Position numbers and translations under genes: made by a program. From NCBI RefSeq assembly GCF_019649055.1, contig NW_026570241.1, positions 1,130,501 to 1,194,500 of the forward strand: 64,000 nucleotides of DNA, in the 5' to 3' direction. Numbering within the stretch: the first letter of the stretch is position 1; each line of letters begins with the position of its first letter. This document shows positions 11,558 through 36,419 of this stretch, piece by piece. The DNA is from Paramacrobiotus metropolitanus (lineage: Eukaryota; Tardigrada; Eutardigrada; Parachela; Macrobiotidae). A model generated the notes under the pieces. It was given only the letters and a program-made list of their open reading frames with translations, was not told the DNA's origin and made no database searches.

Positions 11558-12942
11558 ATGCCGTCGATAGCAATTAACAATGTGGTGCGCCAAAAGCCGA
11601 AGCCAGAGACTGGTGACGGAGCTTTATGGAGGTCGATCAAAGCCCAGGCGTGTAAAGTAAGGGAAATGGCGCATCGAAAGGTTCGCCGCATATTTAAAGA
11701 AAGCAAGAAATCGAAGGAAGATGGTCGCAACTGCGTGCAGATTGCCATAATACGATTCGTACCATCTGGTGTGCGTAGCTGCTGCAGTGTCTTCGCTGAA
11801 TGCTGCGTCTGGAGATGCGGCTTGATAATGGTCCTTAACATTGTGCCAGCCATCGCAATGGGAATCTGGGGAGTCAATTACCAAGCCCGACACTGTACGT
11901 TCAGGTGACCGAATTCTCGATACTGTGCAAACTGTTTTGTTTTTGTATTCCTACGTTCTTTTGAAGTTTTCCTGCAACGTAACATTTACTTTTACAAATA
12001 TACCGTTGCCGTGCGGCAGTAGATGCACGTAGAGTTCGCTGACCTTTCCTAAGAATTATACTTCTTCTCGGGTTCTTTTCGTTTAGTTAAAATGAAAGAT
12101 TTAGAGTATCTGTACTTTGTAATAGCTAGTTTAAGGCGTTACTTGGTATTAGGAATTAGCCTGCACTACTCTGCTGCATTAGTTGGGTTTATCATTTCAT
12201 ATATTACAAAACAGAGTTATCTTTAGGTACGCCGAATGCTAGTGGGTATATTGGCGCTGGAAATGTCAGCATGCAAGCTCCTTCCAGACAGGCTGATGTA
12301 TTTAAATGGTTGGATTCAACTCAGAAAATGGATGATGCTAACATTCTGTATGCTTGGGATCGTCTGAAGACCGTTTTGCGCAAACTCTGCTTTGAAGTTA
12401 TTTGCGAACGGGGTAAATGCATACTCGTGCTTGATGCTCAAAAAGTGATTGGCAAATCTAAAAATTTGGTATGCAGCGTATGCTGATATGTATGTAAATT
12501 GTAATATATATCCTGTATACGCAAAGGCGACCAAACTTCAATAAAGCGATAACATTTATTTAGAAAAGCTTGCACTGCAATAACTATCGTCATGTGCACG
12601 TTTTAGGCACAGGGACTCAAGGTGCTGAGTGCCTAGCGCAAATCTCTAGTACTATAACAGTTTTCTTGAATTGTAGAGGAGTATCGTAGCAAATGGATAC
12701 AGCAAATGTGTATACGCATAACCGGATGGAAAGAGTCGTCGCGACTGTGGGCATGTTCGATCGCCTTAATAGCCTGCGGCGCATCCCAAATCCTGGGTAT
12801 GGTTATCCTCGCTTTAGAGAAGCACTGTGGTGGCGCCATGACGGGATTGAGGCTTTTCTTGGCTGGCTTTATAGTTTCGGTGTTCTGCTTTTGCCTCGCA
12901 GCGAGCGATCTTTACATTTATAACAATGCACTGTCCTGGTAA
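11558..12942 (+). CDS. Three-TM family protein, copy 4 (complete)
   Basis: Exons 11558-11894 (337 bp), 12227-12412 (186 bp) and 12677-12942 (266 bp) sum to 789 bp, 262 codons plus stop, with GT-AG junctions in matching phases. The start M-P-S-I-A-I-N-N is conserved with copy 2, as is the K-P-K-P-E-T-G-D block. The first exon ends in M-G-I-W-G-V-N-Y-Q-A-R-H. Exon 2 has G-N-V-S-M-Q-A-P-S-R-Q-A-D-V-F-K-W-L-D. Exon 3 has C-I-R-I-T-G-W-K-E, two hydrophobic helices and ends A-L-S-W. It is the closest relative of copy 2. A membrane location is inferred from three hydrophobic segments. The function is unknown. Confidence 0.8.
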
Positions 12943-13568
12943 AAGCCCAGCTCTATATGTAAAAAGTCGTGTTAAATTTTCCTAAGCTAGTATTATAAGA
13001 GTTCATGTTTACTGTACTAAAGGAGGGCATATTCTATGCAGGGATATGCCGAGATAAATATTTTACCGGAATGTAACAGCTCGACAGCAAGTAATATTTG
13101 CGAGTTCAAGGCAGTACAATTTCTAAGATAATGGTTTATCAGCTTTACCAACCCAGAGTTTGAAGAAAAGCGTTACATAGCTAAAATAATTACACTGTAC
13201 TTAATCCAGGTAGAAAAATTACGGAAAAGAGAAAGCATGATGTTATTCATAAGTTCTTATATTCCATTTTCAGCTTCCAAGTATCCAGTTGAATAATTAA
13301 TAGGTACGTCGAATGCGGCCGGCCGGATTACTGTTGGAAATGTCAGCATGCAAGCCCCTACCAGACAGAACGATGTATTTAAATGGCTTGATCCAACAAA
13401 TGGACTGGATGACGCTGACACTCTGCATGCTTGAGATCGTCCGGAGGCTGTTTTGCGCAAGCTCTGCTTTGAAGTGGTCTGCGAACGAGGTAAGTGCAAG
13501 GTAATATATCCGCATGCCTTATGCTTAACAAGTGGTTAGCGAAATTAAAAATTGGGCATACTAATATA

Positions 13569-13676
13569 GGGGGAAAAATGAGTCTAGCCGAACCAGTCCC
13601 TTGTACTTCTGATGTAAGCCAGCTGGTGGTTTACGTTGCGGCTAGACAGCGTTTTATGTACAGCGCCGCTATTAAG
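13569..13676 (+). repeat. Left terminal inverted repeat (108 bp)
   Basis: Begins GGGGGAAAAATGAGTCTAGC and ends in GCCGCTATTAAG. It pairs with 17482-17589 with about eight mismatches and no gaps. Confidence 0.9.
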
Positions 13677-13793
13677 ATATACCACCTTGCCTTTTCTACT
13701 GAAACCGATAAAGTAGCAAATGTGGAAAAATTGACCTTCAAAATTTGTCGCAAATTTTCTATAAAAGTGAAAGATTTGTACTGAATACACAGC

Positions 13794-14190
13794 TCAGCCG
13801 ATTACTGAAATGGGCGGCCTAATCACGCAGAACATTTCGTCTAAGTTAGCCGATGCTGGTGCTGTTCCCATGACTGAGGCCGCGTTCCCGCGTTGGATGT
13901 CGATGCTGATCCGTTGGCGCAGGAACTCCGTCGCCCGTACCTCGCCTGTTTCCTGTTGTATCATCTTCCCGACTTCGGTGACCAAACGAGAGGCGTCCGG
14001 TCCGAGTGGTCCGAGTGTTTCGACGCCAACTGCACGGAACAGGTAGTCTCGGGTGAGTTCCCGATACTTTGCCACTTTATCCTGCTCTGCGCGCGCCGCG
14101 GCTGCCCCCGCTTGCTTCGATGTTGCCGCGATGTGCGACAAAGCTACCGTGCACACATGTGGCGTCCCAGGTCATTAAGATTACAAGTAC
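13794..14190 (-). pseudogene. R2-like endonuclease-domain fragment
   Basis: On the minus strand an open stretch (about 14156 down to 13794) encodes the C-terminal part of the same restriction-like endonuclease domain as the retroelement next to it. Shared blocks are V-A-L-S-H-I, A-E-Q-D-K-V-A-K-Y, F-R-A-V-G-V-E-T-L-G-P-L-G and Q-R-I-S-I-D-I-Q-R-G-N-A-A. It lacks the upstream RT and the R-P-D-G motif. It lies between the left TIR and the fuller element, in the same orientation, so it is a 5'-truncated or nested copy. Its sequence is closer to the fragment at 58.6 kb than to its neighbour. Confidence 0.75.
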
Positions 14191-14399
14191 TGATAACAGG
14201 TATTAAAGCAGCACTCGTATAACTGCAGGATTTGGAAATGCCATTCCGCAGATGGAAATGGAACTGCGTACATCCATAGAATTACATTTCTGCAATATGA
14301 AGAATATTTATTGGTTTAGTCATTACCTAGCAGTTTAACATCATACACAAAAACAGATCACAAAACAAAGTAAACAGCACTTAAACCATCAGAACGTGG

Positions 14400-15110
14400 A
14401 ACAGTTGAAGTAACCGACAGAGCATTCCCGCGCTGTATTTCGATGCTAAGACGCTGTAACAAGAACTCGTAGGATCGTCGTTCACCCAGTAGCATCCTTT
14501 AGGCGTTTACCCAGCTCACGTAAAAATTTCAAATACGATGGACCGACAACACCAAAAGTCTCAAAAGCTAAAGCGACAAAATCGTACTCGGTTACCAGAT
14601 ATTCGTATTTACTACATTTTTCCTCTTCCGCTTTCCTGGCAGCCTCACCAGCTTTAATACTGCTGCTGATAACGTTAGACAAGGCAACTGTATCGACGCA
14701 TGTCACATCCCAAGCCAGTCGTAATCCGTTTTTCCAAGGCAGTAGTGACAAACCATCCGGCCGGCGATTGTTCACGGGATCAGTCCCTCTCGGTTCGAGT
14801 ACAGCCGGTATATTAGCAGTAACCAGGCTTCTGCGAATCACTTCGTTCAAGGATGTGTGGCGAAGGAAACGTCCGGCGCTCTTTTTACAAGAAAGTCCGT
14901 GGTGGCCGTATTGGTCGACAGGTTGACGGCAGTCAGTGCAGAGATGAGGACTGCAGATTGGTGCGCCAGTGTAATCCGACGGCTACGCGGAAGCTTTCAT
15001 CAGACATCAACGTTCCAAGGGAAGGTACGGGAGGGCGTTTAGCCACTTTCCCGATTCCGGCTGTGCAACTAAAAGCGCGCACAGTGGGTAACATCGTTTT
15101 AAACAAATTT
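14400..15110 (-). pseudogene. CCHC finger and restriction-like endonuclease region of the retroelement
   Basis: Minus-strand continuation of the reverse transcriptase, separated from it by frameshifts. Near 14870-14960 the frame reads C-T-D-C-R-Q-P-V-D-Q-Y-G-H-H-G-L-S-C, a cysteine/histidine finger. Next comes N-E-V-I-R-R-S-L, L-E-P-R-G-T, then R-P-D-G-L-S-L-L-P-W and W-D-V-T-C-V-D-T (about 14680-14780), the PD-(D/E)xK-type core. After it are F-V-A-L-A-F-E-T-F-G and, around 14430-14480, Q-R-L-S-I-E-I-Q-R-G-N. Finger followed by endonuclease after the RT is the layout of the R2/NeSL/Hero type of non-LTR elements. Stops and frame changes between 15228 and 14850 show this copy is inactive. Confidence 0.75.
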
Positions 15111-15227
15111 ACAATTACTTCGCAAGACTTTGACTACTCCTGTATCCACACTTTCTGTGACCGTCTAAGGTTTTCTGTGGTAGTTCTGTACCCGAAGCTG
15201 CTTGCCACAACTGGTGCACTAAGTCGC

Positions 15228-17231
15228 TTATCCGTTCAGAGCGATGCTTGAAACCAGAGACGACGTGGCGTAAACCGAAGCCAAATAGGCTGAAGTCGCT
15301 AGTTCTGCCACACGCCTGATCCCTAGCCCACCACTGGAAACGGGAAGCGAAACTTGAGCCCAAGTGACACTATCAAATCTGACATTGGTAACTGACTCAA
15401 GTGCCGATTTGCTCACGCTATCAAAAACTTCTAGCTCGTCTGTACAGAGCCAGGTCGGACTAGCGCGAAGTAGGTAGTTCATTTTTGGGACACAAATACA
15501 GGTACGCAGGAGATAATATGCTTGATGAGCAGGCAAAACACTTAGCTTTGAAGAGAGCCTTTGCAGATCTTCGGTCTTTTTGGCAATCGCATCAGGAATA
15601 GCGGCCTGCAAAAGAGGAGCGCCCAGCAGTAACAATTCACTTTCAGTGGGTTGTAAGAATTCTGGGTGGCACTTAATGAACGTTTCCCGCACAATTTCAC
15701 GATCTAGCGCTGTGCCGCCGAAAACAAAGAATTCACATTTTGTGAGATTTAGTTCTAGACCATATTCATGTGCAGTAGCAATGACCTTATCCACATCAGC
15801 TAATACCTCGCATAATTTGCCGCCTATGACGCCATCATCTAGATACCATGCATTCAAGGGCGACAACAAAGACAAAATTAGCGCTAGTATAAGAAGAGAG
15901 AATAACAGAGGGCCTAATGGATCTCCCTGCTGCACGCCGGCCTGGGAAAGAATGTCCCACTCGCCGAATACTAAACTACTGGGATCTCGATAACACTGGC
16001 TAATAAAATGCAAACATTCTGGTAATTCGGATTGCACACACTGTAGCATTTTATCGCGATGGATCGTGTTAAAGGCATTACGAAAATCAAACTTTACGAG
16101 AACTTGCACCTCATCTGATGGACTTGTGACAAAACGTCTAGCCGCATGTACAACTGCCTCGCAGCCGCCGGGACTACCGAAACCCATCTGTTTCGGCCTC
16201 AGTTTTTCACCCATTTGCTGTTGTACGCGTTTAATCACAATTTTCGCGACTATACGGCGTATAGTGCTACCGACCGCAATAGGTCTTATACCTCCTCCTT
16301 TTTTATTTAAGGCTGTTAAACTTGCGCCGTAAAGTACAGGCACAATTTTTTCGGGAACCCGACCGGCTAGCATATTATCCGCTAATTGGGCTAGAACTTC
16401 ACACAACTGGCCAGAGCTATCGTCCGTGATATCGTTTATCATGTCTTTGAAATGCTGCGGTCTAAACCCATCTAGACCACCAGCCGAATCGTTCGGAAAG
16501 CTGGTAATCGCTTCGAATATTTCTTTTTGTTTGACACGGCTTATCTGATCTCTCTGAGCTGAAGACAATACTGGGTAGCAAGCGTCCGGGTTGGCAGCCG
16601 GATGTTTGTTCTGCAGTTCTGCGAAAGTGGCTGCCGTGCGGGGCGCAAGAGCGTCTCCTGAACAAAGAATGCGGACAGCTCCTGACACGTCGCCATTTTG
16701 AATTTTCCCTTGAACGAATTTCGGTAAATCAAAAGGACGTAGCGGTTGGGCAGGTGCGACGGGAATTTCTCTAACCCCTGACTCAAAGCTAGCAATATTA
16801 CATTTAATCAGCGAGGCTAAAGACTGGGTTCGATCGCTCTTTGCTTTCCCTGGTAAACGAAACACGAAATATGCAAACGTAAGCAGGTCTTCCCATGATT
16901 TTTCTGAGTTTTCCGTAACACACCGAGAAACTACGCGCTTCAACGCTGTGGCGACTGCTCTGCGAGCGCCTTTGGGAATACGCTTTACTAATCGACAATT
17001 TGCTCTCAGAAACTTCACCTGGTCTAGAAGGCTGGAACTGGAGACCGTGGCGGAAACTTGGTTGGTGGCTGATGTGTCCAGTCCGCGCTGCCGACGCACC
17101 ACATTCTCCTTGCATTTGTTGCTTCCGTTGTGTTTGGTGAAGGCGCTTTTGGTCGTGCAGACAAATCCGCAGATTGAACAAGGAAAAGAAGGCTTTGAGG
17201 ACGGCACAGCTCCTCCCGAAGTTAAATCCAT
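15228..17231 (-). CDS. R2-like non-LTR reverse transcriptase ORF (667 aa, 3' part frameshifted)
   Basis: The 667-codon minus-strand ORF starts with ATG at 17231. An N-terminal finger reads C-S-I-C-G-F-V-C with downstream H and C (residues about 17-40). RT motifs follow in order: I-R-P-I-A-V-G-S-T-I-R-R, V-K-F-D-F-R-N-A-F-N-T-I (motif A aspartate), G-V-Q-Q-G-D-P-L-G-P-L-L-F (motif B), W-Y-L-D-D-G (motif C with both catalytic aspartates), and N-L-T-K-C-E-F-F-V-F-G (motif D). Family knowledge: such enzymes copy their RNA at a nicked target. The ORF ends at a stop where a frame shift leads on to I-S-D-L-V-H-Q-L-W-Q (15115-15363). The RT core itself is intact. Confidence 0.85.
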   Translation of the reverse strand: MDLTSGGAVPSSKPSFPCSICGFVCTTKSAFTKHNGSNKCKENVVRRQRGLDTSATNQVSATVSSSSLLDQVKFLRANCRLVKRIPKGARRAVATALKRVVSRCVTENSEKSWEDLLTFAYFVFRLPGKAKSDRTQSLASLIKCNIASFESGVREIPVAPAQPLRPFDLPKFVQGKIQNGDVSGAVRILCSGDALAPRTAATFAELQNKHPAANPDACYPVLSSAQRDQISRVKQKEIFEAITSFPNDSAGGLDGFRPQHFKDMINDITDDSSGQLCEVLAQLADNMLAGRVPEKIVPVLYGASLTALNKKGGGIRPIAVGSTIRRIVAKIVIKRVQQQMGEKLRPKQMGFGSPGGCEAVVHAARRFVTSPSDEVQVLVKFDFRNAFNTIHRDKMLQCVQSELPECLHFISQCYRDPSSLVFGEWDILSQAGVQQGDPLGPLLFSLLILALILSLLSPLNAWYLDDGVIGGKLCEVLADVDKVIATAHEYGLELNLTKCEFFVFGGTALDREIVRETFIKCHPEFLQPTESELLLLGAPLLQAAIPDAIAKKTEDLQRLSSKLSVLPAHQAYYLLRTCICVPKMNYLLRASPTWLCTDELEVFDSVSKSALESVTNVRFDSVTWAQVSLPVSSGGLGIRRVAELATSAYLASVYATSSLVSSIALNG

Positions 17232-17481
17232 AATTTCAACACATTATTCACGTTGCGTTCAGGAATTGGATCAGCAGTAACAAACGAGTATGAACAGAAT
17301 AAATTAGGTAACCAGTACTAACCAGAAATCATGCTGACAGAATGCCTTGGAAGGAGACTGGTATTCTTTGCCAAAGAGTACGCGCTGACGACTGATACAG
17401 CTCAAATTGCAGGTAAGCAGGCTACAACTGTATTGTAGCCCGGTGCAGCTAAAACCACATGTACCGTCAATGCCGCACAGC

Positions 17482-17589
17482 CTTAATAGCAGCGCTTTAC
17501 ATAAAACACTGTCAAGCCACAACGTAAACCACCAGCTGGCTTACGTCAGAAGTACACGGGACTGGTTCGGCTAGACTCATTTTTCCCCC
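17482..17589 (-). repeat. Right terminal inverted repeat (108 bp)
   Basis: Complement of 13569-13676, ending CTCATTTTTCCCCC and followed by TATA. Confidence 0.9.
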
Positions 17590-18010
17590 TATATTTATTC
17601 GTCGTAGAAAGCGATTGATCTTCGTTAACACAACACAAAATTCAAAAACGGTTGCATGTTTTACGGGCCGAAATCGAATGCTCATAGGTCACAACTGAGT
17701 CTGCTTAAAGGTGTATCGGTCTTTTTTAACCATAGAGGAATACCACACGAATCAATTTATTCAGAGGTCGTGTATACGCATAACCGGTTGGAAAGAATCG
17801 TCGCATCTGTTGGGAACATCCGTTGCCTTAATAGTCTGCGGCGTATCTCAAATCTTGGGTATGGTTATCATCGCGGTGGAGACGTACTGCGGTACAGGGT
17901 GCGCTATGGCTGGACTATGGTTATTTATGGCCGGCTTTTTCTTTTCATGGATTTACTATTACCTTATAGCTAGCGATCTTTACATTTACATTAAAGCACT
18001 TTCTTGGTAA

Positions 18011-18685
18011 AAATCCTGATATGCTGCTAATATTGTCCTGTTGCGTTTGTCTAATCTGCCTAAATAAATGTTCTTGCATATCTGTACGTAAATAGTGCGC
18101 GAAGTTTTGTTCCAGAAGAACGTACATATCTGTATTTGCATGCTGTGCGTCGGCGCTCTGTATTGTAAGTAAAGCAAATACCTATGTGCATTATGTGGTA
18201 CGTTTGCTGGACTATCCTCGACAGACTGAAATTGCAAAACAGTCTGAAAACTATTAAATGCAGACTGTACATAATAAAAAGCATATGAAAACGGATGTAC
18301 GAAAATAATTTGGATATTTGCCAAGCGATCCTGACTCCTGAGGCAGCGAAATTCACACCAAATGCCAGCATTGCCATTTACATATTTATTTAATGGAAAC
18401 TGGGAAGCATTGTTAATACCATTGCTCTTTGGAGGACGCAAAGCTACTACAAAATTTTTTGCGACGCTTCGTGAATATTGTCATTTCTGCCGGTAACCAG
18501 CCATTGTTTTCAGTGTTGGTTGCTGTCACAAGCCTTGTCTTTTTTCTCGTCTAGAAAAATGACGGATCATCAAAAATTCATTTGAATTGTACTTCAGGGC
18601 GCAACTTACACTCGTATTTCCGCAGTAGCTATCCTAGCTAATACCGTATTAGCTTTCTGATAATCGACACAGTAGTTATGCTTCC
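18011..18685. other. 3' flank of copy 5, no gene seen
   Basis: Related over about 18190-18370 to 5230-5400 (shared ACAGTCTRAAA block). No exon recognised. Confidence 0.5.
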
Positions 18686-20729: not shown

Positions 20730-22275
20730 CTTCCGGGTTTCTCAAGAAAGGCTCGAGGTGAGGTAATGTGATCTCCGAGTTCGTCTGCTCAAAAGCTATT
20801 AATAACTGTTAGTCCTGTTGGGATATTATTTGCACTAGGGCGCTTTCTAGTCAATTTCAGTTTAAATCATACGGGCAGGAAGTTCAACATACCTCCGGAA
20901 AGTTTCGCCAGCGTGTGTATGCAGTCTTCTATTCTCATAAATGTCGACTTCTGAGTGACGAATGTGTTACGTAATTAACGGCGGCTATCATCACTACATG
21001 CTTGTCAAGTAATCAAATAATGATCATGGTTAGATGCTTTCAGCACATCACTACGTAAACAGCGCCAGATCCGATTTTTTATTAATTACTCGTACTTACC
21101 GGAATGTGGACACGGTAGCGTGATATAATATACAGGCCTGTATGCCGTATTGTACGTTGGTCCCGATACTGTTTTCAGTTCGCCTTTTATTGTGGTGTGG
21201 TATTATGTTTGTATTACAGTACGTACAGTATTACATGTGCACTTCCATTTCCATGTCTAAAAGCAAGCAGCTATCAAAATGGTGCCCAGTCTGTAGAACC
21301 TGTAACAACATGCCTGTAAACAACATGCCTGTTGTTAAGGTTAACCGTTAACGAGACTAGACTAAACTATCGTGCATGGAATGATTAAACATGCTGCCAC
21401 ATTGGGATGGCATTTTCCTATCCACAAACATTCATCTAGGAATCGTATCTGTGTTAAAATTAATAAGATAATTTGATTCATTATCAACGCTGGTAAATAA
21501 ACTGCATCCGCTGGTGTGAAGGTGTGCTTGACATATACGGCCTCGGGCTCCTCTCGAGCGCCAACGATCGTATTACGATTTATAGAACGCACAATTCTAG
21601 TGCAGTTTTCAGAAATTACCCGTTCTAAATAGCTCGTAATTAAACGTATTACATGCTGATGTCAATTTAGCCGTCTAATTAGTATAAATAGCCAAGCCTA
21701 GCGTGCTCATAGGATAGCCGCGGCATCTGAATATTAAGGTACCTATCGATTCTTTGACGTCAGTTATATCCTGTTAATCTTGCTTACTTGTTGATGTAGG
21801 TGGCGTAAATGTCAGTTTAATTCACAGCTCACCGGTGAAGTTCCGTATTAGTCTTACTTCAGTGGGCATAATGGAGATGTCCGGTTTCTTGTCAGCCAGA
21901 TTCCGTCCATACCGCAGCTTCTCAAATTATTTTCTAACAACCAGGCATTTTCTTATTATCAAAACACACCTCGGTGGTCGTGCTCTGGGTCGTTTGGCGT
22001 TCGCACATTCATTTTTTATCACGCCGTTTATTTTGACAACAACAATTTCCAGAATTCCAGATCCAACAATGTCTGCGGTCTTATTACGTGTCCAGATCAA
22101 GGCGTAGGAGGCACGATCGGGATTGTTCAACTGTCACCATCTTCACCACGTCGCCACATCACACAGCAGCTTCCTGGAATATAAATGTCGTGGAAAGTAC
22201 TTCTTGACAGTTTCAACGATGTGACAGCAGTCTCATCATCATTAATCGTGCAAAATTGCGTGATCCACACCGGCA
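20730..22275. other. Intergenic upstream of the GPCR cluster
   Basis: No exon recognised. Probable promoter and 5' region of the first receptor lie at its right end, but I see no specific element I can name. Confidence 0.45.
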
Positions 22276-23487
22276 ATGCATAATCACGAGGCCTTTCTTA
22301 ATTTCACCACAAATGAAACCATGCTGAATGCAACCAACTCGTCGCGTTCCCAGCCACCGCTGGGAGCTTATGATATCTGTGAAATTACCAATCTAATTCT
22401 AGCGGTACTATTTAACAGCACAATTTTACTTATCTTACTGCACCAGCCTCGCGAAGTCGCACGAAATCCGTTCCTAATTTACGTTTTGAATCTGCTAATT
22501 GCAAATCTCGTGTTTTTTATCTGCTATACACCGCTGGACCTTGCTGTGGATGATATGGCTGATTTTTCGTTTGGATTGCCGGCCTGCTCATTTTACCTAT
22601 ACGCACAATATTGCGTAGGTAATATCAGTATTTTCGGCCATCTACTGATCGTGATTAACCGCATCTGGGCCGTTGCCGCACCCATTCATTACAAGCAGCA
22701 TCACACAGTCCGCATAACCACTATTCTGTGCGGCATCTCCTGGATTATCATGCACGTTATCATAGTTCCGGGAATCGTTTTTAACGCCACGCTCTTGTCC
22801 AAATCCAATATGCCGAAAGGTTGTGTTGTGGATGTCATCAACAGCGTTATCCTGAAGACATGGAACACTTTTGCCCAGATGGTGCTGGTAATTAGCGAGA
22901 TAATTATGCTGGCTGGATGCCCTTATATCTTGCGGAAGAAGCACGGGACGCGTCAGATTGCAAAATCGGCAGACAGTGACACCAACGACGGCGCTAGTTA
23001 TACCGCAAACAAAGACAGTAAGCGATACAATAATTGTGCTTAAAAATAGATGTGCACCTGCATTTCGCGGATGTGTAATGAGATTCTGTTTTTAGCAGTA
23101 GTGATGAAAGTGTACAAGAGAAAAGCTGATGAGAATAAAGAGACTTCCTGGTTGCTGCTGCTACTGACTCTTTCGGTCTTCTTCTTCTGGACCCCGAGTA
23201 TGATTTGGTACATCAAACTAAGCTTTTCCTCAATTTATGATCCATATGTGACACAAGTGATTAACCTTATTTTCAACTTCCAAGCTGTTGTTGACCCTAT
23301 TGTATTCACCTTGGCATTTGATAGAATACGAAAATACTTTGAATACAATCCGTGTACGGGTGGTACAGCAGCATTTACTTGGTTCAGAAATACTTTGTAT
23401 CGCGTTGGGAAAAAATTAAAAAAATCAAAGACATTTTGCAGTGCAATATTTTGGATGGTGATACGTACGCTAAGGGAAAAATGTTAA
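22276..23487 (+). CDS. Rhodopsin-type GPCR 1 (two exons, intact)
   Basis: Exon 1 is 22276-23017 (742 bp) and exon 2 is 23096-23487 (392 bp), total 1134 bp, 377 aa plus stop. The donor is GTAAGC and the acceptor TTTTTAG or TTTTAGCAG (3 bp apart, both in frame). The N-terminus has N-F-T, N-E-T, N-A-T and N-S-S glycosylation sites. Exon 1 holds TM1 to TM5, with N-R-I-W-A-V after TM3 instead of DRY. Exon 2 holds TM6 (F-F-F-W-T-P-S-M-I-W-Y) and TM7 (F-Q-A-V-V-D-P-I-V-F), where D-P-I-V-F replaces NPxxY. It acts at the plasma membrane. The ligand is unknown. Closest to receptors 2 and 3 downstream. Confidence 0.85.
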
Positions 23488-26155
23488 ACGTTTTACGGTA
23501 GGTCGTTCAAAACAACAACAACAACAACAGAATTACTCATGTATAAAACAGAAATAGTTTTCGCAGAGCAAATCGATCCCTTGATTCGATCACCACTAAC
23601 CAAAGCAGCATTTAGAACGTTTACGTTTTCAAAACTGTCAACACATCGAACGGCTTGTTAGTTTTCGCACTGCAAGATGGTAAACATTTTGGTAGTAACT
23701 GAAACCATGAAGGAAGCTGTAAGAATAGGTCAAACATACTGTAGCGGCTCGATCCAGTGGGCACCACAGATTTTGTGTACGGGAAAACAGCACACATGCA
23801 GCGTTTGCATGCTCGTGCGTTCGGAAGCACAAGCAGCCAGCGCACACTGTGAAAGTGCTGATTTCGCGTACACAAACTCTGTAAGGCTACTTGATCGAGC
23901 CGCTATAATGGGCTATCAGTACGGTACATCCATGTTCGGTCAACGGTATATCCGGTATATTCGGTAGTTTCCGCGACTTGAGCGGCTGCTTAAAACCCCG
24001 CTGCAAAGCGCTGCTCTATCCCATTCACTGCTGTCACTTAGTTGTCTGTTTTGAGTTGTTTCACTGCCAGCAACCATTGCACTTGCCTGAAAACTGTTGT
24101 ACAGAGCGTTTCATAAACAGGTTGTTTACTCTGTAAAACAGCGGAATCTAATATGAACCAGAAACTGAACTGAACTTCTACGATACAGCGGGGCGCTACG
24201 CCATTATTGACAAGGGCTTGCGTAACCCAAGAATATGTGCATGACCTTTGACGAAACAAGATTGATGCAACTGATGCTCCAATGATGTGCTCCTGGCTGC
24301 GTAATGTACCTAAGTGTACCTTCAGTCGCTGGCAGCTTTCTTGTGTAACATAAAATAAAATATATTTTGTTTTTTACACTCATCATTCGGCGCCCACGAA
24401 CAGAACGTTTAGGATTTTACACCCCATTCATTCGATCCAAAATTTGGACGATATTTCTCCGCTCTTGCTGCTGCAATAAACCTGCATCGATAAAATAGAG
24501 TACAACAGGACAAAATAGAGTAGGCATCTTAGCAAATGTTTTTTAGCTTTCGGTGTAATTCCTTTGATTCCATAACAACTTCATGTTGTTCTGTAATATA
24601 GGGACGAACAGATATTTCTTGTTTCTGAAGGTTTGGTGAGTTCCCCAAGTAAACTTACACTGCTGCCTGAGGTCACACGGGTTCCGGTTATTATTTGACT
24701 CGACCAACAGTCGTCAGTTAAATAACAGTGGAGGACGATAAATCGTTCGTGGGCGTGTTCGAGGTTAATTACGCTACTTCAGTTGCTTCTAAGAACGAGG
24801 TTAAAATCATGAAAAGAGCAGCACGTTAGATCCACTAACAACAAATGTCGAACATAAAGCAGGCGTTCATTACAAATTATCTGATTATCATTCAGGATCT
24901 TCGTTCATTTTCACCAGTTACACAATTTTTGTTATCAAGAACGTGCTTTTGCATCCCCTTGGGCCTTGGACCACCGATTGTACGCTTTAATACAGAACTA
25001 ACAGTACTGTATTATGTCCATAATTGCGGTGCCAGTGCCTTTCAAGATTAAAACGGATTATTTGCTTCAGAAGATGCAACAGACAAACTGTTCAAGACTT
25101 ATAATATTTATTGTAATAAATGGATTTTCTGAGACTTATATGTACACTATACAGCCTACAGGTACACCGGTGCAGATACACCTGTACACCGGTGCAAAAT
25201 TTATGTGCCCAGTCGGATTTTGCAGTCCAGCATCTTGCGAAACCGTAAAATTTAAAATAATCTGTCACGCACATCTGTTACTGCATTAGTGACGATGTAT
25301 CATAAACAGATATTCCAATTCAGCCAATAATGTTACTACTTACTAGTAACATGGGCAGCGTAACCGCATGCCAGGACCAGTGGCTTTTCACAGCCATATA
25401 AAAAGAGGAAGTCACTGAGGAATTGTTGAACTCCGTACCTATCTGCATGTTTGTGGCTCTATATGGGATCTAAAATTGCCTACAATTTTCATACTTCACC
25501 AAAAGTACAGTGAATAATTGTAAAAAGCAAGCCAGTCCCGAGTGTACTGTATGCATGCGTTGCAGCGCCGCGTACATGAAAGGTAGGGCTTTTTCTGCTA
25601 CGCCCTTAAAGACCAAACACGTTGCATATCTATTAACAGTACCCATGTCGGGAAGTAACTAATAACCACTTTAAGGGCAAGCAGCGCAAGTAGTAGTAAG
25701 TAATGGTAATAGCGCAAGTTAAAACTTTACGATTGGGCGTATAATGTATGACTACCGTGGCTTTCATTTTTCTGCGTTTTGAAATTGACGTTTTCTACCT
25801 AGACTGCCTGCTGGTTGTGAGAGCGGTTTAACACGTCCAGCTCAAGCTGTGATTTGCCCTTTAATCCATCTCCTTACGTGCCACAGGGCCAAACAAAGAG
25901 CCCACTCAACATCGCCGCAGGATCAAATTGTCGCCATCGTGTTCGATAAGCCACTCGGCGTGTTCATCTCCCATTTAAGGTACCCGACGTGGGTGTATCC
26001 TTCCGTAAAATGTATGGCAATACCAAGCTTCATCCGTGATGATTTTTGAAATGTCGGGTGTGAAAAATTAATCAGATCCGAGAACATCCGGGAACATCTG
26101 GAGCTGGCCATTTATTAATTCATTCGCAAAAATATTGACAGTAATTTTATTTAAA
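23488..26155. other. Intergenic between receptors 1 and 2
   Basis: A (CAA)n run lies near 23506-23529. No exon or transposon with clear ends was recognised in about 2.6 kb. Confidence 0.45.
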
Positions 26156-27295
26156 ATGGCCAATAACACAAACTGCACGTTCATCCCGGTTGTTTTGCGC
26201 ATCTACGACATCTGCGAATTAATTAACTTGATTTTAGCTGTTCCGTTAAATGTCGCGGTGTTAATTGTTTTATTGCGGCAGACGCGTGAATTAGGCAAAA
26301 ATCCGTTTTTGACGTACGTCGTTAACCTGTTGGTAACAAATTTAATTTTTTTCGTGGCCTACGCCCCACTGGACCTCGCCGTCCAGGATTTGGAATTATT
26401 CCAATATGGTGTTACCATCTGCGTATTTTACTTATACACCCAATACGTTCTGGGGAATATTGGAATTTTCGGCCATTTATTGATCGCCATCAATCGCATC
26501 TGGGCGGTCAGCATGCCGGTGCATTACAAACAGCATCACAGCGGAAAAACCGCGATAATTTTATGTGTACTCTCGTGGGTCGCAATGCATGTAATCATAC
26601 TTCCGGGGATTGTTGCCAATCAGCCGTTGTTGCGGGCGTCCAACAATGGTTGCGTGCTAAAGTGTGTGATCAACACCGGCGCGAGTGTGGTGCTGCAGAC
26701 GTGGAATACCATTGCCCAAATGCTGCTGGTAATCAGTGAACTGATCATGTTAACAGCGTGTCCATACATTTTGCGCAAGAAACAGGGAACGCGACGTGTG
26801 GGATTAAAGACTGTTCGTAGTTCGCAGTTATCATCAGAGAAAAACTCTATAAATGACGGTAAGCAGCAGTTTACTTCTTATTTTGATTCTCTACAGACAG
26901 TAACAGACTGCGTAATAAGGTCAGCAAAACACCACAATTAAACAAATAAATACCAGCATAAATATTTTTAATTTTAGGTATTGATTTCTGTTATTATATG
27001 TCAGTTGTGGTTTTCTGCAGACGATGGAGCAGCTCGAAGTGGAAAAACCGTGGAGAGCAATCAAGAAACTTCGTGGCTTCTGCTCCTGCTAACTGTTTCG
27101 GTTTTTGTTTTCTGGACGCCCAGCATGGTCTGGTATCTGATGATGAGTTTTCGCTCCACATCGAATCCATACATCAGCCAAGTTGTTAATTTAGTCTATG
27201 ACTTTCAAGCTGTTGTTGACCCCATTGTGTTTACCCTGGCTTTTGACAGCACTCGTACACAGGCAAAAATTGCCTTTCGAAAATTTCTGCGTTAG
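26156..27295 (+). CDS. Rhodopsin-type GPCR 2 (two exons, intact)
   Basis: Exon 1 26156-26858 (703 bp) and exon 2 27021-27295 (275 bp), total 978 bp, 325 aa plus stop. I chose the ATG at 26156 (M-A-N-N-T-N-C-T). The donor GTAAGC and acceptor TTCTGCAG are in the same phase and place as in receptors 1 and 3. TM1 contains L-I-L-A-V-P-L-N-V-A-V-L-I-V-L-L. N-R-I-W-A-V follows TM3, TM6 has F-W-T-P-S-M-V-W-Y, and TM7 has F-Q-A-V-V-D-P-I-V-F. The cytoplasmic tail is very short. A tandem paralogue of receptor 1. Confidence 0.85.
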
Positions 27296-29149
27296 CAATG
27301 TGCTCTGACTATCTGTGTTACTATTTGTACGAGTAGTACTGTACTGTAATATGGACCGCTTTCGATAATATCATTCTGGCTTTTCATACGTGTAGAGAAT
27401 GCTACAAATTCTGTAGTGAGTTCAGTTCCATAGTGTATTCAGTTCGTGATGCACACAATACTACAGTATCTGTGCAGTTTGGTATCTACTGTCTGATTAC
27501 TGGTATACAGGGTACGGTAGCGGCTTTGGGCGTTTATCAAGAAATGATTGCTTATAGCGAATCCAAAAATTCCGTGTCGTTGTAGTTTACAGGATTAAGA
27601 GTTATTTCGGTCCGCAGTGCGTCTCAGGGTCAGCCCTTGCTTAGCAGAGCCAGCTGAACGCTGTAACGTATTAGCACATTACAATAAAATAAAATGCTGA
27701 ACCTTTTAAAGATTACCTACTGAAGACAGCCGCATTTGGTGAACCACCACAATACAGCATGCTTCACGTGTGTGTGCAAACTTGAAAGGTTTACTGCAAG
27801 AAAGACACCGGAAGAATCTTTAAGCCGTTAAGGTGCACTTTGTGTTGTCATTGTTCGCCCTATACACCGGATTATATTGCAACTGCAGGGGCAACGCTTC
27901 CGTTCTGCGCCCACGCGTTGCCCTTTTTCCTTGAAACAAAAAGATTTATTAGACTGACCGTCATGCAGAACGGTGGGACTCTAGGTGCCTGCAGCCTGAT
28001 AGTGCATCATCAACAAGCGAAGCGGTAGACTTGATCACATCGCATGCCGGCGCAATGCAATATGACGTTTTGCTGCTTGTACGTAATGAAGTTATATTTT
28101 CCACATTTCCCGAAACCTTAAAACAAGATTACCTTAAAAATTTGATGCCGCAAAGCTTGTTATCGTTGGTATGTCCTACAGCAAAGAATTACTATAGTTA
28201 TCTCTTCAACTGAGTTTGTGCCAAACGTGATGCTGTTTTAAGTAGCAATAATTCAGTTCTCCACAAAGTATGTTCTTGTTCCATCCGATGCAGCCTACGT
28301 CAACTATGGTTAAATCTATGCCAAAATGAACATTTAATGCATCGTTTTGATGCATCATAAGTTAACTTGGTCTTCAGCCGGATCCAGGAATGAAAAATGG
28401 GCATCTTATGACGCCGTATGCTGCATGTTAATGTTCGTTGACCCGCTGTGTTCAGCTTTAATATTACAACGTGGTACTATTATTCCGTTTCACTGTGCGT
28501 TTAAGTATTGGTATTAGCCATACCGCAGTCAGTGGGTCAAGTATAATTCCACCATTTACGGTGTACCTCTTGTTGTGATGTCCCCGAAGCCGTAATATCC
28601 CAGCCTGTCAGTCAATATACGCATCAGCCTAATTGAGAAACCGCCTACGCACAGCGCGTATTAACAACGGTTTCTGGAAGATTGTAGCTAGCCAAGACTG
28701 TGTTGTGCAGAGGAAAACGTTCTTTGCATTATTGGCGTTCTTTATCAACCCAGATATCTTTCGGCGAACAAGTAAGCTTGGTTGTCTTCTTTTTCTTATA
28801 GAAATGCTGACCTACCCTACTTGTTTCCAAAATTATTGGCTTACTCATGTTACAGTACTTGTGTTAGAACGCTTTGTGAGCCGCGCGTTTGTACGGATTG
28901 CTTTTTATGAACGTAAACGTGTACGTATGTCATGATGCAGCACAAAATCAACCGGTGGAGTCCCAGACCCATTGCCTCTTTTTAATCTTGCTACGAGGCT
29001 TCCTTGTCCTAAATCCTAGTTTTATAATATTATTGAAGCAGTCATCTGTAGTTTGAATTTGAATGCAGCGATAATTATGAAATCTAATTTATGAGCAGTA
29101 GTACCTGGTTGTAACCTTTGAAACTCGTGAAATAAATACTGGACAGATT
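27296..29149. other. Intergenic between receptors 2 and 3
   Basis: No exon recognised; short ORFs only. Confidence 0.45.
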
Positions 29150-30451
29150 ATGAAACCATTGATAATCCTCAACAATACCAACTGCTCGCATTCACTGACC
29201 AGCGCGTATGACTTATGTGAAATCCTTAATGTCGTTCTCGCGCTACTCACCTCAACGCTGTCGTCTTAATTATTCTCTTGCGCCAACACCGGGAGATTGC
29301 ACGGAATCCATTTCTCATCTACATCCTCAACTTACTGATCACCAATTTAACGTATTTGGTAACGTACACGCCGATCGACCTTACGGTGAACGATATGTTC
29401 CATTTTCAGTACGGAGTGGATATCTGCTCCTTCTACCTGTACACCCAATACGCTTTGGGTAATGTTAGTATTTTTGGTCATCTGCTGATCGTTATCAACC
29501 GCATCTGGGCCGTCACCTTTCCGGTACAGTACAAATACCGGCATACCACGAAAACGGCTGTCCTCCTGTGTGCGGCGTCGTGGATCGTCCTGCACGTAAT
29601 AATCGTTCCAGGGATTGTTTATAACGCTTCACTGCTTCGTGTGTCCCGTATGGCTAGCGGCTGCGTTGTTAATATCGCCAGTAGTGTGGTCCTAAAGGCG
29701 TGGAATACCTTTGCCCAGATGGTTCTGGTAATGAGCGAGGTAATCATGCTCGTCGGGTGTCCGTATATTTTGCGCAAGAAACATCGTGGTCGGCGGATTG
29801 GAAAGCTGTTCAGTGCTATTGCTCCGGAGAACATTATTTATGCCATTAGTAATGAAGGTTAGTACTCTGCAAATACACACATTTCATAGAAGTATTAATA
29901 TTTAATAAAAGCTAGCATCAGCGCTTACCGGGTATAAGACTTTATAGGATTGACCATGCCATCGATTTTGATTTGAAATGCCGTCGAAACCTTAGGGCTT
30001 ACATAATTTCTGCTGCTTATTACTAAGAACAGTTTTTTGCCGTTATTATTTGTAACGAACGTGGCAGCTGTAGACTGATTATCGGCATTTATCGCAATTA
30101 TCCGCCGTGAAAATAAGTTACGGTCGCCGTCAAAATACGAGGGGTAAGAATTTCGGCACACCAATTAACGCTGCATACGTACTATTTTTTATAGGCGTTA
30201 TTCCTAGCCGAAACGGAACACGGTTTGATGATAACTACGAGACGTCGTGGCTGTTACTGCTTCTGACGGTGTCGGTCTTCATCTTCTGGACACCAAGCAT
30301 GATCTGGTACATCAAACTGAGCTTCTCGGCGACGTATGACCCTTATGCTACCCAAGTAATTAATTTGATTTTCAATTTTCAAGCTGTTATTGACCCCATC
30401 GTCTTTACTCTGGCTCTGTACAATATGCGGAAGTATGTGATATTTTGTTAA
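29150..30451 (+). pseudogene. Rhodopsin-type GPCR 3 (frameshift in TM1)
   Basis: The model has exon 1 29150-29857 (708 bp) and exon 2 30195-30451 (257 bp). They sum to 965 bp, two more than a multiple of three. The excess lies in TM1, where the frame from the ATG (M-K-P-L-I-I-L-N-N-T-N-C) runs L-A-L-L-T-S-T-L-S-S-stop. The frame matching receptors 1 and 2 (L-N-A-V-V-L-I-I-L-L-R-Q) begins two bases later. Everything after, including N-R-I-W-A-V, F-W-T-P-S-M-I-W-Y and F-Q-A-V-I-D-P-I-V-F, is open. It is a young pseudogene, a sequencing error, or an undetected start. Confidence 0.75.
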
Positions 30452-32525
30452 AATGTTTACTGCATACCAGTCCTGTGCAACTCAGAGAGCGCTGTCGAGT
30501 CTCGAGTTATACGGACGAAAGCAATGGAAAACATCAGTAACTGAAAACAGCGAACGCACAAGCAATGGAAATTAAGTAATAATGCACAAAAGTGCGGAAG
30601 CTAAAAAATCTGTGTTACACAATATTAACTGTATTTTGTCAATAAACTAAAAAATTAGATTTTAACAGCTATTAAAATTCAATAGCTTTTTTTCGTAGTT
30701 TGTGCTAGTGCGTCTGTACTAGCGTAATCTGTGGTCTGTTTTTTTATCTATTAAACAATTTTTGTAGTCTGTACTAGTGCGACGATGCGTGGTACAATAC
30801 GTAACATGATTAACATGTTAATCACATTTAATGCATGAAACTGAAATGCCAAAAAAGCAACATGCGAATACGCAAACTGGATTTTTAAAATCCCGAGCCG
30901 AACATAATTTCGGTTAACGTTATTAAAATGATGAGGAGATATACGGATGGTGAGGTGATATAGGGCTGGATATCATGCAATCCTGCCAGGTGGAAGACGT
31001 ACTTTTGAAATGCACTGCGGCACATTGGATTTGGCGCCCTGTGGAGAAATTGACTAGAGTGGTCTAGAGAAATTGTGGTCTAGAGTGGAGAAATTGACTG
31101 TTCCGGCGCGCCTTGTGACAAACAATACCACGTTTCTTTCTATCAGACGTGGTAGAATGCTGCTCCGTTGAAGCACCTTTGATGAGTCTATCGTTCTGCT
31201 CCAGGAGATATTTATGAACGAACATTGTTCTCAATATTCTACACAGACTCTGTACAGTGAAAATTTGGTGGCATGAAACCACAATTTTGTTGTGCGACTT
31301 CAGGAAAAGTTACTAGGTGTAAACGTCGCGGTGGATTTGTTGCACGTGAGTGATTATTAATGGCAGTGCGCCCGTGCAGATCTGGAATTTATTAAGCCAG
31401 CGAATGATATGTAGAAACAATTGGCGGTACAGTATTACTGTGCAGGCTTTGCTGCGGCTTTTGGATGTAAAAGAAGTCCAGAAAGTGGTGGAGCTTTTCT
31501 TGACAGAGCGGACTCGAATCGGTCTTATGGTCAGCTGTTACATCAGCCGCATCGGCGTTTGAGACATCGACAGTAACTTCTCTTTCACTGCATGCAGCCG
31601 TTGCGGTATCGGGTGATGTTCTTGTATATTAAACGTTATCGGCCACTTCTAGAATTTTAGTATGAACGCCGTATAGAAACAAACGGCAGCGGAAACCACT
31701 GATCACAGAAACGCGGAAGGCGAATGCGTAGCTGCGTTGTAAATCTGGTTCGCTGTTCCTTAATTCCACATCTCCAGTGCTCAATATTTTAATGAGCGGT
31801 ATTTCGTAGCACGCCGAATTGCGATCAGATAGCAATTGCGTCGAGCCTGGTGGAAACAATGCAATAACACACGGCATGTAGAGTAGGTGTGATACAATGG
31901 AGGTCTTCGCTGTATGTACATACAGCCTGATACAGGTAAATACGTCCAATGCGGCAGTGAATCTGCCATATGCAGATATATGCATACTGTCATAGTGTAG
32001 TTGGTATCTCATTTTCCGCACCTCATTAGGCGTTTATACATGTCCGAATATTGAAATTACACTGCTAGAGCATCCCAAATGAGACCAATTGCAATGACTT
32101 TTGAGGGTTCATAGATCTGGATAGGTCCAAAAAAGTAATACATGTACTGTAGCCGAAACCGTAGCTGTAAAGTGTATTTGTATACTCGAGATTGTTCAGC
32201 TCTTAATTTCTTGCTTTTAGTTGCTTGACAGTACGTATTCTGAGTTCTCACCGTATTGTTAATCGACAGCGGGCGAAACAAAATTAACTGGACACACTGA
32301 CGTAACTGGCAACGTAGAACACCAGATCAGAATAATTATGTAAAACTGTACAATGTATATATGTGCACAGCGTAGGAAAAGCATCAAAATGTCATAAATT
32401 TGTCAGTACGAGTACAACGAGCTTGAAAGTTATCCTTTTAATTGATATATATACATGGTAACAAGTAATAGCACTGAATGTCAATGACTGTTACTGCAAA
32501 CACGAGCTGTATTGTAATTGTACAA
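30452..32525. other. Intergenic, no gene seen
   Basis: AT-rich; no exon or bounded repeat recognised. Confidence 0.45.
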
Positions 32526-33581
32526 TTAAGTTTGACCGGTAAATTTCTTGTGAACGAGATCACGTTGATTAGTTACGCACGTTCCAGCTCGGCAAGGTAT
32601 AGATAAACACTTTCTGACTGCTTGCCGCACATCCTGCAGACACACCGCAAATAGGACGGGATCGATAAGCGCCTGCACCGGATACAACGCCCAGAACATC
32701 TTACGCATCCATTCCGGCGCCGCACGTCCAGTAAAAATCGTGACAGTGGCTGAGACATTATTTGGCAGCCAGCACACCGTAACGCTCATCGTCATCGCGG
32801 TCAACACCAAAAATCCGCGGTCCAGCTCCCGGTGACGGCTGCGAAACAAACTTTGATTGCGCGATGATACCGACGGCACCACATCGCGACCTTTCTCCAC
32901 ACCGGTACGGATCTTCTTGTACACAAACACCGGGTAGGATCCAATGACGAACGCGGTCGGAATCAGGTAAACGACAATTAAGACCACCAGGGTCCATGTG
33001 CGATGAGTTCCAGGATCAAGGTCACACCCGCCTTCATCCACACGGCCTTTACTGGGCAAATCAAGAAGCAGCGGCGGTAAGGTCACCAGGTGGATGATCG
33101 CCCAGATGGATAAGCACACAATTACCGCGAAATTCCTGGAGTGGTATTCGCGGTAGGAGAATGGATGGAACACCGCCCACAGCCGGTTGAAAGTGATGAG
33201 GAAGTGGGACATATTCGTTCCGCCGGTGAAGACGAAATTCCCGTACAATAACACCACACACGCGGCCGGTCCCATCCACCACGTGGCGTACCAGTCATTT
33301 AAGATCTGCAGGACGTTAACGAAGACGTCGTAACAAAGGATGTTGGACGTACATAGACTCATGACGTAGATGTTGAAGGGGGTGTGCAGATGGCGGTTGC
33401 ATAAGAGAATACCTAGAACAAAACCGTTGGTGGCCAGGACACCGATGAGGGCGATGATATCCACGGATACGTAGAAGATGTTGCGGTTGGGCGAAAAGAT
33501 GGCATCGTCGGTATCGTTGAGTGTGGTGTTGATGGTGATTACGATGCGTCCGATAATGACGGTACGGTTGTTGCGCTCCAT
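32526..33581 (-). CDS. Rhodopsin-type GPCR 4 (single exon, 351 aa)
   Basis: A single uninterrupted minus-strand ORF starts ATG at 33581. The N-terminus has N-R-T, N-T-T and N-D-T glycosylation sites. Seven hydrophobic segments are visible. N-R-L-W-A-V follows TM3. The intracellular loop 3 is basic (S-R-N-Q-S-L-F-R-S-R-H-R-E). TM6 has V-C-W-L-P-N-N, and TM7 has V-Q-A-L-I-D-P-V-L-F before a cysteine-rich tail. It belongs to the same lineage as the other receptors here but is intronless, longer and transcribed in the opposite direction. GC content is higher than the surroundings. The ligand is unknown. Confidence 0.9.
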   Translation of the reverse strand: MERNNRTVIIGRIVITINTTLNDTDDAIFSPNRNIFYVSVDIIALIGVLATNGFVLGILLCNRHLHTPFNIYVMSLCTSNILCYDVFVNVLQILNDWYATWWMGPAACVVLLYGNFVFTGGTNMSHFLITFNRLWAVFHPFSYREYHSRNFAVIVCLSIWAIIHLVTLPPLLLDLPSKGRVDEGGCDLDPGTHRTWTLVVLIVVYLIPTAFVIGSYPVFVYKKIRTGVEKGRDVVPSVSSRNQSLFRSRHRELDRGFLVLTAMTMSVTVCWLPNNVSATVTIFTGRAAPEWMRKMFWALYPVQALIDPVLFAVCLQDVRQAVRKCLSIPCRAGTCVTNQRDLVHKKFTGQT

Positions 33582-35477
33582 TAAAACTGATGCGGCAAAA
33601 ACGACGCCGAAACTGAAGACGAAATTTTAATAATGTTTTCGCCTATTAATGTACAGCTTTTGTCGGCTATCCCCATAAATAAAGAAATTCCTATACTAAG
33701 TTCGCAAAGCTTTACGGGAAAAGAATTTGTTGACTTTATGTTTTGCAGAAATGCTTCGCACCGATAAAACGTGCCATGCGTTATACTTTACGCAGTACTC
33801 TGTAGAACATAGGTTAAGCAGAAATTCTTGAACAGCCTGTTTTTATGGATTGAAAAATTCGAGGTTGTGCCAGTCTGGCAACCCCATCGATGCCCCTACT
33901 ATAACGTCGGCTGTGTTAAGGTACTCAGGAATATGGATTGCCTTACTGACAGTCTTATTGTCGTTTCTTGCTACAGAGTACAGACTAACAATTGCACCGT
34001 AATCAGATATACCGCTTGTCAGCGGAAGGACATGGATCGCTTAAAAAAATTGAATGTTCTGGTAAAAACACGTACGAAATTCAGCAGCTGTCAAGTTAAC
34101 GGTGCTGCATCGTACTCGGAAGTACTGTGTATTCGAATGTCCAGCGGAGTGAGCGGACTGCCTTGACAGCCGGAAGTGTATTTCAAGAAGAAGTGGTATA
34201 CGTAGACAGAAGTGTGCTGGCTGTGTTTGTTTGTACAAGAAGTGTTGCCTCAACGCCCGGGGTACAGTACAGATTTACATAAATGTCGTTTTAATACGAA
34301 GAAAACGAACACGATCGCGCATTTCATTGTAAAATATGCTCAATTATTGTACAAAATACTTGTAACTATGACTTGTGCTCGAGCTGGCGGCTGTGTACTC
34401 AGTAAACAATAAATTCAAAGACGAACAACCGTAATTTGCGTACTAAAATGTGTAGTAGCCAGTAAAAAAGAAAATGTATGGTCCGCAATCACAGTTAAAA
34501 ATAAACAAAAAAACACAGAAAATAAAATGTGTATTTAAACAAAAGTAAATTTAGTAAATTTATTTAACTGCTCGCTATTGTGAAATATATTTAATACCAT
34601 TTGAACAATCGTATTTTTATAAACTGTCAGGTTTTTTTTACGTTATCGTCGATAGTTTTGCCATTCCGACATGCGAAATGTCAGGTAATGAATGGGATGT
34701 GTCCGCATTCCCTTATGATTTAAAGCTGCATCAGCAATAACCTGCACGATAATGCCGGGAAATACCGTCATATCCAGATATGCATCGGGATAGACATTGT
34801 TTGCTTTGCGCAGATGGTCCGTCTCCCCAAAGTGCCGGAACTTATGTACTGGTGTAAAATGTTGCTGAATATCAAATGGCGATTATTATGCCGATCTGAG
34901 ATCATGTCAAGGTCCTTACCCGAAACATCCTTCTACTGCATATAAAGTAGTTTGCCTGTATGTAAACAACGCACTGCAAGCGACTGCAGTAATGTTTGTC
35001 TCAATTATGAAACCTTCCATTTATCACGTTTTTGGAGGCACTTTCCATAACCTAACCTTGAACCAATATTTTAACAATCAGTTTAATTTAACGGACTAGA
35101 AGTTTAATATTAATTTACTGTTTGGATATTGCCTCCCAACATACGTACGCCGTGGTACGAGTTTCAGGAAAATGGCGCTTGTCGGTATCGATACATTTGA
35201 TTCGGGTATGTGTTGAGACACTCTTTGCTTTTGTCAACTATATATTACAAATATATGGTACCACTATTTTCCTAACAGACTTGATCTGCAGCAGCTTTCA
35301 GTAAATTAGTGAAGTGCTTTTTTGCTTTGACTTTAATTCAGGCTGCCAGTTATAACGAACAATTTTCAGTAGTCAGTAATCGTTCGACAGCTGTTTTCCA
35401 CAAACAATCACAAATTTCTTAGTTTGATCAAATTTAATTCTTATGGCTTTCCGTTAGGTTCATTGTCGTCCAGCTTT
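33582..35477. other. Intergenic between divergent receptors 4 and 5
   Basis: Receptors 4 and 5 point away from each other, so this stretch must contain both promoters. No specific element or exon is recognised. Confidence 0.45.
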
Positions 35478-36419
35478 ATGGATAACCAGACCGCGCGGCA
35501 AAATATATCCAGCGTTGAGGAAGCCAGTAGCATTTCCATGTGGGCGGACCTTTCGTTGAGTATCGCCGTGTTAATTACCAACCTGCCAGTTTTACTGATT
35601 TTCTTGATATCAAAACCGCTGCAGACGCCATTTGCAGTCTACATCATTTTTCTCTTAGTCTTCAATCTGCTCACCTACTGCGTTGTGGTCAACCCGATAG
35701 AAATATCCAGCGACGCCATCTCCAGCGCTTGGGCTTTAAATATGCCGGCGTGTATTGTCAACATTTACGGGAACTGGGTCATCACGGGAATGTCATCCTA
35801 TGCGCATCTCTTAATCGCTGTCAACCGTGTGTGGGCCATAGTGTCACCGGTATCCTACCGAAATCGGCATACAAAACGATTAGCGATTACTTTTTGCTGC
35901 GGTGTCTTAAGTGCACTGCACGTACTCTGTCTGCCGAATATTTTGTACAATCAGTTGACGTATTATCCCGGGTCGAATCCTTGTGGACTGGATGACACCA
36001 ACCCGGCGCAAGCCATCTGGATTTTTGCTAATTTCTTCCTGGTCTTCGATATACCGGTTATTGCGGTGGTGGGAGTGTGTCCATTTATATTGTACAAAAC
36101 CATTCGGCATCGGAAGGATCCTTTAAAGAATCTGAAAAATGATGGAGCGAGTAATTTTAGCGGGATACGAGGTGGAAAAGGAGAATCATCACGGGCGCTC
36201 TTTACCTTAACGGTTATGACCACAAGTCTTCTTATCTCGTGGGGACCGAATCAGTTGTACTGGACCATTAATTTTTTCCATCATTTGGAGCGACCATCTT
36301 GGCTGTATTTGGATCAGCTGTATAGCATTCAGGCGGTGGTGGATCCTGTAATTTTTGCATTATGTCTGCCGAATGTCCGTACATTTATATTGCGCGTTAT
36401 AAACCGCGCGACCAAATAG
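35478..36419 (+). CDS. Rhodopsin-type GPCR 5 (single exon, 313 aa)
   Basis: Intronless ORF of 942 bp. I chose ATG 35478 (M-D-N-Q-T-A-R-Q-N-I-S-S) because the open frame upstream lacks an ATG. Two N-glycosylation sites precede TM1. N-R-V-W-A-I-V follows TM3. TM6 carries L-I-S-W-G-P-N-Q-L-Y-W, and TM7 carries I-Q-A-V-V-D-P-V-I-F. The pseudogene at 46.6-47.4 kb is its direct paralogue. Plasma membrane receptor, ligand unknown. Confidence 0.85.
   Translation: MDNQTARQNISSVEEASSISMWADLSLSIAVLITNLPVLLIFLISKPLQTPFAVYIIFLLVFNLLTYCVVVNPIEISSDAISSAWALNMPACIVNIYGNWVITGMSSYAHLLIAVNRVWAIVSPVSYRNRHTKRLAITFCCGVLSALHVLCLPNILYNQLTYYPGSNPCGLDDTNPAQAIWIFANFFLVFDIPVIAVVGVCPFILYKTIRHRKDPLKNLKNDGASNFSGIRGGKGESSRALFTLTVMTTSLLISWGPNQLYWTINFFHHLERPSWLYLDQLYSIQAVVDPVIFALCLPNVRTFILRVINRATK

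Follow-up and report, generated by a model that had tools for sequence, protein, structure and literature searches.

In a 64,000-nt stretch of the genome of the tardigrade Paramacrobiotus metropolitanus (contig NW_026570241.1, positions 1,130,501 to 1,194,500; hereafter the window), an R2-like reverse transcriptase (RT) lies between long terminal inverted repeats (TIRs). The locus is almost certainly composed of two long interspersed nuclear elements (LINEs) of the type carrying a restriction-like endonuclease (RLE), here designated A and B, nested in one copy of a miniature inverted-repeat transposable element (MITE), and is not a new class of element. Nothing found points to a functional link between the TIRs and the RT. 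Sister copies of the MITE, together with the target-site duplications found within it, suffice to show the nesting.

The enclosure itself is real. Inverted arms of 114 nt (13563-13676 and 17482-17595, 94% complementary, with 3805 nt in between), given as 108 bp in an earlier note made from the sequence of the window, enclose the R2-like RT frame and two RLE stretches, all on the minus strand. The left end of the locus is TATAGGGGG and the right end CCCCCTATA. If the MITE duplicated a TA upon insertion, the copy in the window extends from 13567 to 17591, and the outer coordinates previously assigned to the element, 13565-17593, are the outer edges of the two TA dinucleotides. Likewise, the parts described in the earlier note are all present; what was left unsaid is that the TIRs, the endonuclease fragment A and the RT element B represent three separate insertions (Table 1).

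The inverted repeats belong to a MITE family

The genome (169.8 Mb in 533 contigs) was searched with the left arm and 40 of 196 candidates were scored; here and below, counts cover the places scored and fetched, not every genomic copy. The 41 matches among the candidates scored correspond to the window plus 29 loci elsewhere in the genome, each of which was fetched. Two arms are present in 26 of these 29 loci, with end-to-end lengths of 285-526 bp: 24 span 326-372 bp, while L009 measures 526 bp and L032, which has a partial second arm, 285 bp. A comparison of the loci with LINE proteins, not extended to other kinds of coding sequence, detected no LINE coding sequence inside any of the 29 MITEs, the one weak match being located in the flank of L009. 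Moreover, rejoining the three MITE pieces of the window without A and B gives a sequence that can be aligned over its length with 11 sister MITEs; the exceptions are an additional ATTA, a stretch of variable length and an insert in L009. The arms are those of a short (∼340-350 bp), multi-copy TIR transposon without an RT, that is, a MITE.

Empty sites were searched for with joined flanks, and 40 of 255 candidates were scored, yielding 39 matches for L001, one for L004 and none for any other locus. In each of the six empty sites that were read (five for L001, one for L004), 346 bp of the occupied copy are missing. This insert length fits TAGGGGG...CCCCCTA with a TA duplication or, equally, AGGGGG...CCCCCT with an ATAT duplication, but does not agree with GGGGG...CCCCC and a TATA duplication. 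Hence, of the two duplications previously suggested for empty sites, TA and TATA, only the former agrees with the insert; both TA and ATAT fit, and TA is preferred merely as the simpler reading. The family resembles known TA-duplicating MITEs in being multi-copy and short, with long TIRs and an insert length consistent with a TA duplication. It differs in that the copy in the window has been enlarged by two LINEs, and in that an ATAT duplication fits as well. In the right flanks of L010 and L030, a second repeat starting TATATAGGGGG was observed beside the MITE or at most about 30 bp away, perhaps representing a related MITE family.

Two LINE insertions and their relatives

Each LINE in the window is bounded by a target-site duplication of its own. 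Insertion A, which lies where the left arm gives way to the MITE interior, is flanked by the 8-bp duplication ATTAAGAT, and insertion B by a 9-bp duplication, AACTGCAGG on one side and AATTGCAGG on the other. Over at most 13743-14173, A shares 99% identity with L037 and 91.5-94.3% with 16 other copies; the DNA of B is 74.7-77.9% identical to that of seven other copies. At the protein level, A is 96% identical to L042 and 44-46% identical to L014 and L015, while the pieces of B show 67-90% identity to the latter two. Judged by these protein identities, A and B belong to different LINE families. The RT frame of B encodes 671 aa and matches Pfam RVT_1 (E = 1.5e-23); its C2H2 finger is a weak match (E = 0.015), below the Pfam cut-off. 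A frameshift places the RLE part of B in frames other than that of the RT.

Both insertions carry a 3' tail. None of the 17 other copies showed the 64-bp tail of A, and a genome search with the 70-bp tail of B returned itself alone. The tail of A is similar to a fragment of the L060-L065 repeat; that repeat is about 600 bp long and present as two tandem copies in L060.

Table 1. Features of the nested locus (window coordinates).
Feature	Position	Strand	Basis
Left TA target-site duplication of MITE	13565..13566		Sequence; sister empty sites L001, L004; ATAT fits equally
Left TIR of MITE	13567..13676	+	Arm comparison, genome search, sister alignment
Target-site duplication ATTAAGAT of A, one copy	13671..13678		Sequence, sister alignment
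LINE insertion A, 5'-truncated RLE LINE, 495 bp	13679..14173	-	Copies and tblastn
64-bp 3' tail of A	13679..13742	-	Resembles a different repeat, L060-L065
RLE coding part of A	13797..14156	-	tblastn, 96% to L042 protein
Target-site duplication ATTAAGAT of A, other copy	14174..14181		Sequence, sister alignment
MITE interior between A and B	14182..14229	+	Sister alignment
Target-site duplication AACTGCAGG of B, one copy	14221..14229		Sequence, sister alignment
LINE insertion B, frameshifted and almost full-length RLE LINE from a second family	14230..17404	-	DNA identity, frames
70-bp 3' tail of B, past the 3' end of the family (CCAATAAA...)	14230..14299	-	Genome search
B: linker, CCHC finger, restriction-like endonuclease, two further frames	14361..15225	-	Motifs, profile, frames
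B: open frame, N-terminal zinc finger and RT	15228..17243	-	Open reading frame, Pfam
Target-site duplication AATTGCAGG of B, other copy, 8/9 identical	17405..17413		Sequence, sister alignment
MITE interior, right part	17414..17481	+	Sister alignment
Right TIR of MITE	17482..17591	-	Arm comparison, genome search, sister alignment
Right TA target-site duplication of MITE	17592..17593		Sequence and sister empty sites; ATAT fits equally

A genome search with the RT, in which 66 of 956 candidates were scored, gave 67 matches: the window itself, 11 matches of 75-83% identity distributed over ten places, a single match of 64%, and 54 of 38-44%. A MITE arm is absent from all 70 LINE loci fetched (L011-L017, L037-L059 and L072-L111). 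Target-site duplications of at least 9 bp were detected in 8 of 17 LINE copies with a short search zone, compared with 12 of 340 mismatched pairs, and in three of four full-length copies of B, for which the search zone was long, compared with 13 of 80 control pairs. Of 40 copies in a second set, 12 had duplications of at least 10 bp, against 18 of 1560 mismatched pairs. The resolved duplications of LINEs elsewhere measure 9-14 bp (8-14 bp with A and B included) and lie at unrelated sites: across 21 duplication-resolved sites, including the two of the window, no common target sequence was found apart from a mildly favoured adenine at the first base (15/21). No match to ribosomal RNA was found in the window, L011, L012, L013 or L016. 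These LINEs display 5' truncation, and their target duplications vary in length.

In several LINE copies, a stretch separates the 3' end of the family (often AATAAA plus a few bases) from the target duplication. These stretches, seen in L011, L017, L043 and L053 among others, are 4-33 bp long in copies scored for duplications and 64 and 70 bp in the window. A clear poly(A) tail is missing from them; adenine runs do occur close to the 3' ends of L044 and L045. The tail of L017, an element 99.7% identical to L011, contains 7 bp shared with the L011 flank, as though taken over from the source locus.

These elements look like a known kind of LINE, the R2-like RLE LINEs. A profile built from 11 LINE proteins finds R2 proteins as the best match among solved structures (E = 1.2e-21), followed by LINE-1 ORF2, and the conserved motifs C..C / H....C and RPDG...WDVTCVDT match the C-terminal region of R2 collinearly, though weakly. 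The self-cleaving ribozyme at the 5' end of R2 is of the hepatitis delta virus-like type. No Rfam match at the gathering score was obtained with five sources, nor any with E ≤ 1 within 17150-17450, although a diverged ribozyme could escape such a search. A self-cleaving 5' ribozyme is named as a feature of R2 in the literature on these elements (PMC7650587). RLE LINE clades are given as CRE, R2, R4, NeSL and HERO, many HERO families being non-specific (PMC4640811). R2-type RLE LINEs without site specificity include R2NS-1_SMed and R2NS-1_CSi (PMC5035012) and BLAG 1-6 of the German cockroach (PMC7650587). By these descriptions, our LINEs would share with them an N-terminal finger, an RT with R2 as its best match among solved structures, a putative C-terminal CCHC finger with an RLE stretch and unrelated insertion sites. 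The HERO clade appears similar in its RLE type and lack of a fixed target (PMC4640811). R2 sensu stricto differs by its insertion into 28S ribosomal DNA, of which the sites examined here gave no sign.

Weighing the nested-insertion model and its alternatives

Taken together, these data suggest the following sequence of events. A MITE of about 340 bp would have inserted at the locus, most simply with duplication of a TA, after mobilisation at some point by a transposase supplied in trans. Subsequently, two RLE LINEs of different families would have entered its interior, in either order, A arriving as a short, 5'-truncated copy and B nearly full length, with its frameshift present by now. Target-primed reverse transcription is the established mechanism of LINE insertion. 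We infer that it operated here as well because of the 5' truncation, the duplications of 8-14 bp and the R2-type RT.

Several observations weigh against this model. A and B lie on the same strand within a single MITE of about 340 bp, which would be unusual if insertion sites were random, albeit in a window picked for its oddness. The genome searches covered 40 of 196 arm and 66 of 956 RT candidates. Three of the 29 MITE loci (L024, L029 and L036) have a single arm. No empty site for the locus of the window itself was found among the 40 of 255 candidates scored, its own join in the query lacking a few bases. As for the LINEs, 9 of the 17 short-zone copies yielded no duplication of at least 9 bp and 28 of the 40 copies of the second set none of at least 10 bp (in 4 of the 40, a limit fell outside the fetched stretch), and, given the control matches, the duplications of three full-length copies of B, L011, L013 and L016, are not secure. 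Finally, the RLE region is collinear with that of R2, but the match is weak (5.5 bits, i-Evalue 31).

One alternative is that RLE LINEs are drawn to inverted repeats or hairpins, so that MITEs would be preferred targets. In line with such an attraction, the R2 protein cleaves open four-way junctions, according to an earlier report (PMC6895275), two insertions reside in one MITE, A lying where an arm meets the MITE interior, and L011 apparently borders a perfect inverted repeat of 38 nt, albeit with a duplication that is itself doubtful. Among the first 10 sites considered, strong inverted repeats (scores 38 and 33) were present at two, either directly at the insertion point or close to it, compared with none of 35 random window positions scoring at least 18. 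This set, which included L013 on the basis of an 11-bp match 299 bp upstream of the aligned start, left the idea possible. A larger test, on 19 sites with resolved duplications and with control positions drawn from the same loci, shows no excess, however: one site lies at an inverted-repeat edge where 1.58 would be expected, and three fall inside a spanning inverted repeat where the expectation is 2.57. This test leaves out A and B and dropped L013 and, from the 12 matches of the second set, L082 and L098, the matches of the last two being of low complexity or far (136 and 103 bp) from the aligned 3' end; L016 is in neither set. In addition, none of the 29 other MITEs has been hit by a LINE. 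We therefore regard a preference of these LINEs for inverted repeats as very unlikely.

Harder still to maintain is a class of TIR transposons with an R2-like RT as its own gene, which we consider to have practically no chance of being correct. The earlier note had raised such an undescribed class on the strength of the anatomy of this locus, and that anatomy is all that speaks for it. The proposed co-occurrence of TIR and RT at the same spacing is not seen among the loci fetched: 0 of 29 other MITEs contain LINE coding sequence and 0 of 70 LINE loci have arms. On the copies examined, the TIRs instead surround short elements without an RT (26 of 29 two-armed), and the relatives of the RT lack TIRs, the outcome that had been named as evidence of a nested insertion. 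The LINE pieces have their own duplications within the MITE, and 13 LINE loci share no terminal inverted repeats of at least 30 nt (direct terminal repeats were not searched for). Inverted pairs at individual loci were examined; for L014, L016 and L012, these were the five longest of 8, 10 and 10, respectively. The perfect 38-nt pair of L011 has one of its arms at the insertion site, the pairs of L056 and L058 (36 and 39 nt) surround the LINE at only 72% identity, and those of L012, L014 and L016 lie outside it. RT-less sister MITEs, inner duplications and arm-less LINE relatives together lead us to reject this class. The other previous suggestion, a TIR transposon that captured R2-like DNA, holds insofar as a single MITE copy received two LINEs, and no further. 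We found no paper linking restriction-like endonuclease, non-long-terminal-repeat (non-LTR) retrotransposon and terminal inverted repeats, which is not proof of absence.

That A and B stem from one LINE insertion, later rearranged, is equally hard to credit: they share a strand and are separated by 48 bp of MITE, but by protein identity they belong to different families, and each has a separate duplication.

Nested insertion of two LINEs in a MITE removes a false lead, in that plain nesting can yield long TIRs around a non-LTR RT. With both MITE ends intact, a transposase acting in trans could conceivably mobilise the whole 4-kb composite, an event we hold to be highly improbable; if it did occur, a LINE that had inserted into a MITE would now and then be carried to new sites as the passenger of a DNA transposon. 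By-products of the analysis are a MITE family with 114-bp arms and a numerous, apparently non-site-specific group of R2-like LINEs, the insertions of which often have short 3' tails.

Outside the nested locus, two direct-repeat stretches flank the MITE at 12708-12944 and 17770-18012, 5.06 kb apart and 81% and 71% identical. Their open frames share similar hydrophobic ends, perhaps reflecting duplicated exons. Further downstream, a cluster of rhodopsin-type seven-transmembrane receptor genes is located at 22264-36419 of the window (7tm_1, E = 2e-17 to 5e-30 for four open reading frames).

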